From Candidatus Polarisedimenticolia bacterium (GTDB taxonomy: Bacteria > Acidobacteriota > Polarisedimenticolia > Gp22-AA2), in the NCBI GenBank assembly GCA_036001465.1, contig DASYUH010000034.1, positions 1-47,326 of the forward strand: a stretch of 47,326 nt of DNA, written 5' to 3'. A program made the translations under genes and the position numbers. The notes beneath the pieces were generated by a model, which worked only from the letters and a program-made list of their open reading frames with translations, was not told the DNA's origin and searched no databases. Below, piece after piece: positions 9,792-17,625 of the stretch (the first letter of the stretch is position 1; each line of letters begins with the position of its first letter).

Positions 9792-10220
9792 CTAGGACGG
9801 CTCGTTCGGCCCGACGCCCTCGCTGATCTGGAGGCGGATGATCGCCTTCTGCATCGCCACCTGGGCGCGCTTGAAGTCGGTGTCGGGCGATCGCCCCGCA
9901 AGACGGGCCGCGGCGCGATCGCGCGCCTTCAGGGCTCGATCGCGGTCGATCCCCTCGGCGCTCTCGGCGATCTCCGCCAGGATGCTCACGCGGTCCGGCA
10001 GGACCTCGGCGAATCCCCAGGCGATCGCCACCCGGTGCCGGGAGGCCCCTCGCCGGTACATCAGCTCGCCGATCCCGAGGGTCGTCAGGAGCGGCGTGTG
10101 GCCGGGAAGGACGCCGAGCGAACCCTCGCTCCCGGGCAGGACCACCTCGTCCACGACCTCGTTGGCCAGGCGCTGCTCGGGCGTGACGATCTCCAGGTGG
10201 ATCGACTCCGGTAGCGGCAT
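9792..10220 (-). CDS. atpC: ATP synthase F1 epsilon subunit
   Basis: Central-stalk subunit of F1, 142 residues. The N-terminal beta-sandwich begins IHLEIVTPEQRLANEVVDEVVLPGSEGSLGVLPGHTPLLTTL, the epsilon signature. The C-terminal helical part (about 88-130) is Ala/Arg-rich, as in the regulatory hairpin. GAGGAG lies 3 nt before ATG 10220, and the gene follows atpD after 7 bp. It closes the atp cluster. Confidence 0.95.
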   Translation of the reverse strand: MPLPESIHLEIVTPEQRLANEVVDEVVLPGSEGSLGVLPGHTPLLTTLGIGELMYRRGASRHRVAIAWGFAEVLPDRVSILAEIAESAEGIDRDRALKARDRAAARLAGRSPDTDFKRAQVAMQKAIIRLQISEGVGPNEPS

Positions 10221-10227
10221 GGTCTCC

Positions 10228-11673
<1,446 letters not shown>

Positions 11674-12309
11674 CTAGACATCGCGGCCGCAGAAGCGGCA
11701 CACCTTGGCGCGGGCCTTGATCCGCTCCGCGCAGAACGGGCACTCTCTCGTCTCGTGGCCGGGGCCCGCGGCGTCCGGCGCGCCGCCCCTGCGATCGTCG
11801 GCCGCGCCGGCCCCGCCCGCCGCTCCGCGCGGATCGTCTCCCGGCCGGTAGCGGCCCCGCTGCTGGCGCTCGAGAATCGCCTCCTTCACCTCCATCGGTC
11901 GCGCGACGTGTTCGATCGTCGTGGAGCCGGCTTCCGCGGCGGTCTGGATGTTAAGCGTCCCGAATCCCAGCATCCGTCCCAGGAGCGACTGGCTGCACGC
12001 GACGTTGTGGATCTTGTCGAGCGGGCTGTCCACGGCCCGCAGCGACAGCACGCCCGCCTCGTCGATCACGCGCTCCGACGTGATCGCCCAGAGATCGCAG
12101 CGCCACTCGAGCCAGCGCCAGCCCGCCCACAGGGCGGCCGCCGCGAGCGCCGCGCCGGCCGCCGGTGCGATCCAGGGCCTCTTGATGAACCACGCCCCGA
12201 TCAGGCACCCGAGCAGGAACAGCGCCGCCGCGAAGGGACCGCTCAGCACCACCCAGTGGCGGCGCACCATCGCCACCAGCTCCTCGCCCGGCCTCAGCGG
12301 CGTCCTCAT
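11674..12309 (-). CDS. PH-like (bPH2/DUF304) membrane protein with C-terminal zinc ribbon
   Basis: Unknown function, 211 residues. Two hydrophobic segments form a probable membrane hairpin (about 18-40 and 47-62). A bacterial PH-like domain follows (about 65-145), with the family features WAITSERVIDEAGVLSLRAVDSPLDKIHNV and GFGTLNIQTA. A low-complexity Gly/Asp/Arg linker leads to a zinc ribbon near the C-terminus, CPFCAERIKARAKVCRFCGRDV (two CxxC pairs). It sits between atpG (13 bp upstream) and atpD (30 bp downstream) on the same strand, so it is almost certainly co-transcribed with ATP synthase. A role in assembly or membrane association of F1 is only a guess from position. Confidence 0.82.
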   Translation of the reverse strand: MRTPLRPGEELVAMVRRHWVVLSGPFAAALFLLGCLIGAWFIKRPWIAPAAGAALAAAALWAGWRWLEWRCDLWAITSERVIDEAGVLSLRAVDSPLDKIHNVACSQSLLGRMLGFGTLNIQTAAEAGSTTIEHVARPMEVKEAILERQQRGRYRPGDDPRGAAGGAGAADDRRGGAPDAAGPGHETRECPFCAERIKARAKVCRFCGRDV

Positions 12310-12322
12310 CGGATCGAGCCCG

Positions 12323-13192
12323 CTACTTCAGCGCCTCGGCGCCGCTGACCACCTCGAGGATCTCCTTGGTGATGGACGCCTGCCGGATCTTGTTCATCTG
12401 CAAGGTCAGGGAGTCGATCATCTCCCCCGCGTTCCGCGTGGCGTTCTCCATCGCCGTCATGCGGGCGCCGTGCTCGGCAGCGACCGATTCCAGGAGCACC
12501 CGGTGCACCTGGATCATCACGTGCTTCGGCAGGAGCGCCGCGAACAGGCTCTCCTGGTGCGGTTCGTAGAGGTAGTCCTCGGGCTTCCCGGCCCCGGCCA
12601 GAAACGCGGCCTGCGGGATCGGCAGGAGCGGCTCCACCACGACGCGCTGCTGCATGACCGACTTGAACTCGTTGTAGACCAGGTACACAGAGTCGAGCTC
12701 GCCGCGCGAGAAGAGATCGATGAGCGGGCCGGCGACGTCGCGCGCCTCCTCGAAGGTGACGTCCCTGAAGATGTCGACGACGGTGCGGCGCACCCCGTAG
12801 TCGCGCCGCCGGAACCAGTCCCGGGCCTTCTTTCCGATGATGTCGACCTGGACCATGCCCGCGGCCCGCCCCCGCCGCTCGTCCAGGAAGACCCGCGCGC
12901 GATTCAGGATGTTGGTGTTGAACGAGCCGCACAGCCCCTTGTCGGCGGTGATCACGACGACCAGGACCTTCTCCTCCGGGCGCCGGCTCAGGAGCGGGTG
13001 CTTCTCGGGGTGGGCGCGTGTGGCGAGGGACGACAGGACCTCGAGCATCTTGCGGGCGTAGGGCCGCGCCGAGAGGATCCGGTCCTGCGCCCGGCGCAGC
13101 TTGGATGCCGACACCAGCTTCATGGCGCGCGTGATCTGCTGCGTGCTCTTGACGCTGCGGATGCGGGTGCGGTAGTCGCGGACGTTGGCCAT
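12323..13192 (-). CDS. atpG: ATP synthase F1 gamma subunit
   Basis: Rotor shaft of F1, 289 residues. The N-terminal coiled coil reads MANVRDYRTRIRSVKSTQQ then ITRAMKLVSASKLRRAQ. The central VVITADKGLCGSFNTNIL matches the Rossmann-like domain, and the C-terminal helix contains ENATRNAGEMIDSLTLQMNKIRQASITKEILEVVSGAEAL, the most conserved gamma region. ATG 13192 is 15 bp after the atpA stop. Confidence 0.97.
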   Translation of the reverse strand: MANVRDYRTRIRSVKSTQQITRAMKLVSASKLRRAQDRILSARPYARKMLEVLSSLATRAHPEKHPLLSRRPEEKVLVVVITADKGLCGSFNTNILNRARVFLDERRGRAAGMVQVDIIGKKARDWFRRRDYGVRRTVVDIFRDVTFEEARDVAGPLIDLFSRGELDSVYLVYNEFKSVMQQRVVVEPLLPIPQAAFLAGAGKPEDYLYEPHQESLFAALLPKHVMIQVHRVLLESVAAEHGARMTAMENATRNAGEMIDSLTLQMNKIRQASITKEILEVVSGAEALK

Positions 13193-13207: not shown

Positions 13208-14734
<1,527 letters not shown>

Positions 14735-14797: not shown

Positions 14798-15394
14798 TCA
14801 TCGCGCGCCCACGAGCCGGCCGCGCAGGGTCTCCAGCTTGTGCCTCAGCGTGCCGTCGTAGACCTTCGACCCGATGCGGGTGCGCGCCCCCCCCAGCACG
14901 GAGGGGTCCACGAGGTGCGTGACCTTCACGGACCGGCCGGTCAGGCTCTCCAGCGCCGCATGCAGGCGCTTCGCCTCGGCCGCCGTGAGGGGCCTCGCCG
15001 TCGTCGTCTCCGCCGAGACGATGCCGATGCGCTCGTCCTTGATCGAGGCGAACGCGTCCCGGACGGCGCCGATCATCCCGAGCCGCCGGTTGGCGACCAG
15101 GACCAGCAGGAATCTCCGTACCGAGTCGCCGAGCTTGCCGTGCTTCGCCAGCGCGTCGATCGCCGCCCGCTTCTCCTCCTGGCCGATGGCGGGATCCGCG
15201 AAGAAGCGCTGGAACATGAGGTCGGCGCCCAGCACGCGGGCGGCCAGGTCCAGTTCGTCCGCGACCGCCTGCAAATCCGGTGTGGTGTTGTGGCCGGCCC
15301 GGGCGGGCTTGCCCCTCCCGCCCCGCATCCCGGCCCCGTCGACATGGTCGGCGAGGGCCCGCGCGTACCGCTTCGCGACGACGACTGGCTGCAC
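14798..15394 (-). CDS. atpH: ATP synthase F1 delta subunit
   Basis: Peripheral-stalk subunit of F1, 198 residues. It begins MQPVVVAKRYARALADHV (OSCP/delta start), has FFADPAIGQEEKRAAIDAL in the middle, and ends with SLTGRSVKVTHLVDPSVLGGARTRIGSKVYDGTLRHKLETLR, the conserved C-terminal delta motif. GTG 15394 was chosen because GGAG lies 7 nt upstream and the protein then starts at the family position; the frame is open another 66 codons upstream without homology. It is the first gene of the atp cluster; no atpB, atpE or atpF is adjacent, since the next gene upstream is an HNH protein. Confidence 0.93.
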   Translation of the reverse strand: MQPVVVAKRYARALADHVDGAGMRGGRGKPARAGHNTTPDLQAVADELDLAARVLGADLMFQRFFADPAIGQEEKRAAIDALAKHGKLGDSVRRFLLVLVANRRLGMIGAVRDAFASIKDERIGIVSAETTTARPLTAAEAKRLHAALESLTGRSVKVTHLVDPSVLGGARTRIGSKVYDGTLRHKLETLRGRLVGAR

Positions 15395-15588
15395 CCGAGT
15401 TCTCCGGACAGGGAAGGGCCGGCGGCCGGGACCGGAAGGACGCCGGGAGGCATCATAAGACCCCGCACGCGCCGCCTGCCCGTGGCGCCGCCGGGAAACC
15501 CTCTTCGGAACGGCGGAACGTAGCACACGCCCCGCCGAAGTGTCAACGATCGCGGGGCTTAGGCGGGAGAGGAACCGCGGACGCATCG

Positions 15589-17625
15589 TCATTCAACGCT
15601 CTCCATCCCCGGCTTCCTCAACGCTTTTCCCCACCGGACGTCTTCGATGAATCGCTCCAGCGGCCTACCCTCCAGTCGCCGTCCCAGCGCCCAGGCGAAA
15701 AGACCGCCCGGCAGCGCATGACACCGCAGTCGGCTCGCGTGGAACCCCTGATGGTGATGCGTGGCGCAGATGGTCACCAGGTTCTCCCCCTCGTCGTCGC
15801 CGCCCTGCGAACGGTAGAAGATGTGGTGCGCGTTGAGGTTCCGGCGGGAGGAGCAGCCGGGGACCCGGCAGCGCCAGCCGTCCCGTTCGTAGATGAGATA
15901 ATTTCGCTGCCAGTCTGCGCCGTCAGTTACCTCCCATGTCTTCCTGAAAGACGACAGCATCGACTCGACGCATTCCCAATCCTGCAGAGCGCTGCCTGCG
16001 ACAAGACGGCAGACTTCGATCGCGTGACGCCAGAGGCGGGCGACATCGTCCGGAGCCCAGAAGCGGACCGTCCCCCATGACGCCCACGTTTGCACCCCGG
16101 CCTCGGCGGCCTGCGGTTCTTCGACGCTCCGCGCACACGTTTGCACCCCGCTCCACGGTCCGAGCCGTGGAGATCGCGGCTCGATTTCTCCCGAGGGAGT
16201 CATCCCCGCCGGCTGCAAGCCTCCCGCTCGAACGCCAGGGTCCCCGGCCCGGCCGGCGGCAATATTGACCTCATCACGCAGACGCCGGACGGTGACGGAC
16301 GTTGCGAGCCGCACCCAGGCCTCTTCGGACTGCCGATCCGCCACGCGGACCACGCTCGAAGCCTGGACCCACGAGAGATCGCCCCCTCGGTACGCGTCGG
16401 CGATGCGCGGCAGGCCGGTGAGCCGACGATCGAGGGCTATCAGCTGCCGCGCCCGCCGCAAGCCGAAGCCAACGCGCTCACGACAATAACTCTCGAAGGA
16501 CAGAAACCCGATCTCCCGGTGGAGTCCGAGCGCAACAAGCGTGCGGAGCAGGCGCCCCTGTTGCCAGGCCAGGTTCTGGCGGAGGCGGATCAGGGCCCGC
16601 AGTCTGTCATCCAGATCCCGGGGCCCATCCGCCGGATCGTCTCGCACATCATCCGGCAGGATAACCTCCGGATTCTCCGGCGGCGCCCACCGGTTGGAAC
16701 CGTGCCTCCTCTCGTAGGTCGCGAGCACTTCCTCGAAGAGATCGACGCCGTCATCCTGTCCGCAGGGCGACTTTCCCGCCGGGCAAGGATCGTCCTCGGT
16801 TAGGGGATCATCGAATTCGGTCTCCGAGGCAGCCCCGTCCTGGCAGCCACGCGCAAGCATCGAGGGAAGATCCGGCACTCCGGCAAGAAAATCTGCGGCA
16901 ATGTACTCGGCGCACTGCCAGGCCGGGGCATCGCTTCCCGCCGACGCCCGGCAAATCTCAAGCGCATACTCCCACCGACCCCGGATTTGCTCCGGGCATC
17001 TGAAGCTCTCCCATCGCCCCTCCCTTTCTTCATCGATCGGCGCTGTGGTGGCCGCCGGGGTCGCGGTCGCATCGGCAAGCGTGGCGCTCGCCGCTTCACG
17101 CGCCGCCGCTTGGATTTCCTCCTGGAGAAGCCGCACCGTGACGCTCCTGGCCCTCCCCACCCATCGGGCCTCCGTGTCCGGTGTCACGATCCGAAGCAGC
17201 AGTCGGAGCTGGCTGTGCGTGATTGACCCAGCCCTGTATGCTTCTGCCGTGACCGGCAGATCCTCCAGGCCCGCATCGATCTGAAGGAGCACCTGCATCC
17301 GCCGTGCCGACATCCCGAGGCGCTCGGTCACGTAGTCGGCCAGCCTAGCGAAGCCAAGCTCCAGATACCCCGACGACGCTCGCAACCGTGCCAGCAGCCG
17401 ACCAAGGCGCAGCTCGAGAGGACTGCGCATACAGGACAGGCGCCGGAGATGACGGTCGAGGAGGAACGCCGCGAGGCCACGCACGATTTGACGGCCTTCA
17501 CCCCCCGACGCAAGATCGAGAAGCGCTTCGGGCACGTACGTCGCCTTCGGCTCCAGACGGATCGCCTGTGCCGCAGGCCCCATGGGCCCGGCGAAATCCT
17601 TGTCCTGAGAGACCATCCCCTGCAA
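15589..17625 (-). CDS. HNH endonuclease family protein with two DUF222-like modules
   Basis: Protein of 678 residues. Residues about 60-180 and 335-455 are two copies of the same helical module; compare GYLELGFARLADYVTERLGM with GFLSFESYCRERVGFGL, and LTGLPRIADAYRGGDLSWVQ with LEDLPVTAEAYRAGSITHSQ. Each is followed by a related segment, WEYALEICRASAGSDAPAW and WRHAIEVCRLVAGSALQDW. The C-terminal HNH nuclease fold (about 570-640) has CRVPGCSSRRNLNAHHIFYR, GENLVTICATHHH. TTG 17625 is preferred because GAGGTG lies 5 nt upstream; an ATG is available at 17616. It has its own promoter (17718-17746). The target is unknown; the family is often chromosomal and multi-copy. A paralogue lies at the right edge. 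Confidence 0.85.
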   Translation of the reverse strand: MQGMVSQDKDFAGPMGPAAQAIRLEPKATYVPEALLDLASGGEGRQIVRGLAAFLLDRHLRRLSCMRSPLELRLGRLLARLRASSGYLELGFARLADYVTERLGMSARRMQVLLQIDAGLEDLPVTAEAYRAGSITHSQLRLLLRIVTPDTEARWVGRARSVTVRLLQEEIQAAAREAASATLADATATPAATTAPIDEEREGRWESFRCPEQIRGRWEYALEICRASAGSDAPAWQCAEYIAADFLAGVPDLPSMLARGCQDGAASETEFDDPLTEDDPCPAGKSPCGQDDGVDLFEEVLATYERRHGSNRWAPPENPEVILPDDVRDDPADGPRDLDDRLRALIRLRQNLAWQQGRLLRTLVALGLHREIGFLSFESYCRERVGFGLRRARQLIALDRRLTGLPRIADAYRGGDLSWVQASSVVRVADRQSEEAWVRLATSVTVRRLRDEVNIAAGRAGDPGVRAGGLQPAGMTPSGEIEPRSPRLGPWSGVQTCARSVEEPQAAEAGVQTWASWGTVRFWAPDDVARLWRHAIEVCRLVAGSALQDWECVESMLSSFRKTWEVTDGADWQRNYLIYERDGWRCRVPGCSSRRNLNAHHIFYRSQGGDDEGENLVTICATHHHQGFHASRLRCHALPGGLFAWALGRRLEGRPLERFIEDVRWGKALRKPGMESVE
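16084..16150 (-). repeat. Two in-frame copies of a CACGTTTGCACCCCG repeat inside the HNH gene
   Basis: CACGTTTGCACCCCG occurs at 16085-16099 and 16136-16150, 51 bp (17 codons) apart, in the linker before the last module. On the coding strand they encode GVQTW and GVQTC. A closely related 15-nt repeat occurs twice in the paralogous gene at 47180-47275. Confidence 0.75.

Follow-up and report, generated by a model that had tools for sequence, protein, structure and literature searches.

A bPH_2 membrane protein gene with a C-terminal Cys4 ribbon, retained between atpG and atpD in one bacterial family, and its possible link to F1

What is a gene for a small membrane protein doing between the gamma and beta subunit genes of ATP synthase, and does its position tell us anything about the function of its product? 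The question is raised by the window (that is, the whole stretch of 47,326 nucleotides that was analysed), where a gene encoding a protein with a bacterial PH domain, hereafter the PH gene and the PH protein, is located at this border (Table 1). Proteins with a bPH_2 domain are found widely, for the most part with no settled function; a place between gamma and beta gives them a concrete partner hypothesis. A link to F1, if true, would mean that a lineage-specific accessory had joined a complex with a set of genes commonly regarded as closed, and such a factor would serve a family in which F1 and Fo genes are transcribed separately. Our search of the literature found nothing on an atpG-PH-atpD arrangement.

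Table 1. Positions in the window of the F1 genes, of the PH gene and of the segments encoding parts of its product
Feature	Position	Strand	Evidence
atpC, F1 epsilon	9792..10220	-	Pfam
atpD, F1 beta, 30 bp downstream of the PH gene	10228..11643	-	PF00006, 2.4e-70
PH gene (2-TM bPH_2/zinc-ribbon membrane protein), 211 aa, ATG start	11674..12309	-	ORF, Pfam, orthologues
C-terminal Cys4 ribbon CPFC-x10-CRFC, residues 190-210	11680..11742	-	Cys invariant in 6 orthologues
bPH_2 domain, residues 69-146	11872..12105	-	PF03703, E 6.9e-14
Membrane hairpin, two hydrophobic helices, ~residues 15-64	12118..12267	-	hydropathy; low-confidence model
atpG, F1 gamma, 13 bp upstream of the PH gene	12323..13192	-	PF00231, 8.6e-102
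atpA, F1 alpha	13208..14734	-	Pfam
atpH, F1 delta	14798..15592	-	PF00213 over residues 106-259

The first-pass annotation had described a codirectional gene separating atpG from atpD, 13 bp from one and 30 bp from the other, and a product combining a membrane-hairpin PH-like domain with a C-terminal CxxC...CxxC ribbon. Both descriptions hold: the open reading frame and the Pfam matches of the flanking genes confirm the arrangement, and the PF03703 match of the PH protein (52.3 bits) exceeds the curated cut-off of 22, which is passed also by all five orthologues. The ribbon stays below the Pfam cut-offs for UPF0547 (19.8 of 29 bits) and Zn_ribbon_3 (17.1 of 27 bits), with scores of at most 25 bits in the orthologues, and its Cys4 pattern is invariant. 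Hydrophobic stretches at about residues 15-48 and 45-64 precede the PH domain according to hydropathy, and structure prediction from two sequences, of low confidence (mean pLDDT 51), places helices at residues 7-43 and 49-77; the N-terminus thus matches the two-helix membrane hairpin of bPH_2 membrane proteins. Comparison with solved structures gave no meaningful match. A search of the 4.58 Mb genome returned the PH gene as its sole bPH_2 gene, so that it is not a spare paralogue. That the ribbon might be a tag used widely in this genome was rejected, as a single convincing copy of the motif is present.

The operon encodes F1 only and is found behind parA-parB-like genes both in the window's family and in its sister family. 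The Fo genes atpB, atpE and atpF are located on another contig, after nuoN and together with AtpI/AtpZ-like genes, and for this reason the F1 operon encodes no membrane protein other than the PH protein. The separation of F1 and Fo genes is older than the gain of the PH gene. The listed atpH frame carries about 100 extra N-terminal residues ahead of the OSCP domain; its N-terminus is probably too long and the true start internal. Directly upstream of atpH, and overlapping it by a few bases, is a 678-aa gene (15589-17625) with an HNH-endonuclease-like end, as judged by eye; among the fetched family loci it is present only in the window and in G002.

That the tight spacing implies one transcript, as had been proposed, is supported by short gaps in every family member and by a scan of the region with an E. 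coli-type consensus, hence a weak one, in which no promoter-like or terminator-like site was found. Judging from the spacing, the PH gene is very likely co-expressed with F1, on the same transcript as delta-alpha-gamma and beta-epsilon. atpD has its own ribosome-binding site (GAGGAGA), and a strong site is kept in this position after the insert in most family members. No clear ribosome-binding site precedes the PH gene itself, whose expression may thus be low or coupled.

Our family sample comprised eight genomes, and those with the complete stretch represent three genera (four genomes from one genus and one each from two others). The order atpG-PH-atpD is intact in all six genomes holding the whole stretch; in the seventh (G002) atpG and the PH gene, 9 bp apart, are present up to the contig end, and the eighth (G007, 63% complete) yielded no atpG and no atpD. 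Across the family the gaps measure 6-31 bp before the PH gene and 13-76 bp after it. The six orthologous proteins, encoded in the same frame, share 54-75% identity with a pN/pS of 0.39-0.68, which points to purifying selection and identifies the PH gene as a real gene; the corresponding values are 0.25-0.48 for gamma, 0.11-0.22 for beta and 0.27-0.56 for epsilon, all from simple Nei-Gojobori counts in which synonymous sites are partly saturated. The PH protein changes faster than gamma and beta. Its invariant positions include, besides the four Cys of the ribbon, the stretch QTAAE.GSTT and many residues at the start of the PH domain (DLWA.T..RV.DE.G.L); the linker, rich in Ala and Gly, varies. 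Since the six PH sequences cluster together, and since the closest pair (G001-G003) is the same in gamma and beta, the PH gene has descended together with the operon. Synteny across the family extends also to the wider surroundings (epsilon, glycosyltransferase, mfd), so that the position of the PH gene could persist by inheritance alone. The F1 gamma of the family differs from that of the sister family in two loops of variable length, with 289-315 aa in all; a change in gamma accompanying the gain of the PH gene was considered and set aside, because loop lengths vary inside the family and no clear link was seen.

Outside the family, 48 genomes of the class and phylum were compared, and in none of them does a PH gene separate atpG from atpD. 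The spacing of the two genes in these genomes is 13-117 bp, with one exception of about 287 bp (locus L141 of genome G073), the longest among the non-family genomes. In the sister family, of which four genomes were searched, about 28 bp separate atpG from atpD, and these genomes yielded no bPH_2 gene at all. An ancient operon member is ruled out by the adjacency of atpG and atpD in the 48 genomes, and the comparison indicates that the family acquired the PH gene, by gain or by relocation, before it radiated, as a clade-specific addition that was then fixed. The first-pass annotation had suggested that a chance insertion would be betrayed by relatives with adjacent atpG and atpD and the PH gene elsewhere. 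Such adjacency is indeed the state outside the family, but the sister family, instead of carrying the PH gene elsewhere, lacks it. Conservation in relatives, which it had proposed to check, proved to be fixed inside the family; a one-off chance insertion is thereby ruled out in favour of a lineage-specific gain that has been kept.

Where could the gene have come from? A profile built from six family orthologues matched 59 of 396 genomes of the phylum, the window's family included, and at the non-family loci L097-L119 no atpG or atpD was found within about 1.5 kb on each side. In a tree of the core the family forms one clade (support 0.99), with the sequences of f66 as sister group (0.94). This is also the closest group outside the family: two of its members (L152 5332-6033 and L100) share the complete series of hairpin, PH domain and ribbon with the family's proteins, at 44-45% identity, whereas the other two of its four sequences (L098 and L099) are without ribbon, so that the ribbon was gained or lost within one family. 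Of the two f66 members with a ribbon, the one with full context stands outside the ATP synthase operon, between a gatD-like and a peptidase-like gene, and a homologue in f16 adjoins sucCD and ndk. Many relatives found with the profile end in a SHOCT-like tail (tails and neighbours were named by eye) and others in a ribbon; the tail is therefore exchangeable. The form with a ribbon is probably older than the relocation to the atp operon. Two further neighbourhoods were noted: an alanine racemase-like gene stands beside the PH relative of L098, and L080 (G025:C159, 21-1532), outside the atp context, holds a short PH-ribbon protein beside a class D beta-lactamase-like ORF.

Among known systems, the YdbS-type bPH_2 proteins (PF03703, former DUF304) likewise consist of an N-terminal two-helix hairpin followed by one bPH_2 domain, whereas the window's protein adds a tethered C-terminal Cys4 ribbon and is encoded in the F1 operon. 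The gene for the multi-PH partner YdbT normally adjoins ydbS (PMC8657885), but here no such partner is adjacent and the genome has only one bPH_2 locus. PuhB, a photosynthetic complex assembly protein (NF040894), gave a weak match of 75 residues, which takes in the second helix and some of the PH domain. Membership is ruled out (16.1 bits against a cut-off of 110), and PuhB offers at most an analogy for a bPH_2 protein serving a bioenergetic membrane complex. Small membrane proteins that are encoded alongside ATP synthase genes without being subunits are also known in AtpI and AtpZ; however, no sequence relation to them was seen, they sit with the Fo genes, and genes resembling them by eye are separately present in the window's genome.

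The explanation that we favour, with a probability of about 0.45 as a whole, combines an ancestral insertion, co-transcription and a membrane adaptor with F1 as its preferred partner. In the ancestor of the family, as the comparison shows, a gene for a two-helix membrane protein was inserted at the atpG|atpD border of an F1-only operon, and it has been inherited since. The product would be a membrane-anchored protein-protein adaptor: the hairpin would hold it in the membrane, the PH domains on the cytosolic face may form a ring or platform, and the Cys4 ribbon, on its variable flexible linker, would capture the partner. Bacterial PH domains can form rings and are without the eukaryotic lipid site, and PHb domains have been proposed as oligomeric end pieces of membrane-associated complexes, binding proteins and not lipid (PMC2817789). 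F1, or an F1 intermediate, is the favoured partner because the PH protein is the only membrane protein from the F1 operon and the Fo genes lie elsewhere. Intact retention in every complete copy suggests a role with ATP synthase, and a physical role with F1 is plausible. More tentatively, the protein may be an ATP synthase accessory that belongs to the bPH_2 class and is peculiar to this clade, forming a platform in the membrane with a ribbon arm that would dock, assemble or regulate F1. The conserved location in the atp operon that is looked for in an accessory factor was found within one family only.

Nearly as likely as an F1-linked adaptor is a co-transcribed hitchhiker: an ordinary YdbS-like bPH_2 protein with an unrelated role in the envelope or in stress, inserted at a tolerated border of a constitutively transcribed operon, where selection would hold the protein and its expression and not a contact with ATP synthase. 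The two come so close because the sister family lives without the PH gene and homologues sit elsewhere. The sister family has the same F1-only operon and no bPH_2 gene, so F1 assembly does not need the PH protein there, and homologues in the phylum occupy unrelated places, such as those in f66 and f16 described above. Moreover, the atpG|atpD junction is a known split point of the locus in other phyla (chlorobi, bacteroidetes, cyanobacteria and aquificae; PMC4154653), and PHb2 proteins of the YdbS/YdbT type have in other bacteria been linked to unrelated functions, for example bacteriocin transport (PMC8657885). The close spacing on either side in every member, and the lack of a second bPH_2 gene, speak for the adaptor, but they do not decide against a passenger. 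Weighing against the adaptor, besides the state of the sister family, are the synteny of the surrounding genes, the faster change of the PH protein relative to gamma and beta, and the lack of a clear ribosome-binding site ahead of the PH gene.

It is improbable that the insert matters mainly through expression, by altering the spacing of gamma and beta, their translational coupling and dosage, with the protein being secondary. The PH gene does stand between the genes of a 1-copy and a 3-copy subunit, and the strong atpD ribosome-binding site has been retained behind it in most members; however, purifying selection acts on the protein itself, with invariant residues in the PH domain and the Cys4 ribbon. 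An assembly artefact or a wrong gene call is scarcely credible: although the compared genomes are mostly fragmented assemblies, nothing specific points to an error, and the same junction recurs, with diverged sequence, in seven separate assemblies, so that the orthologues refute it.

It should be noted that G002 contains, besides its atpG-PH pair, a second and divergent alpha-gamma-beta set without PH gene (L091, G002:C248, 9218-12996). Its subunits are 68% (alpha), 42% (gamma) and 79% (beta) identical to those of the family, and it is joined to an epsilon gene, a glycosyltransferase gene and mfd of the family type, representing either a chimeric contig or a real replacement.
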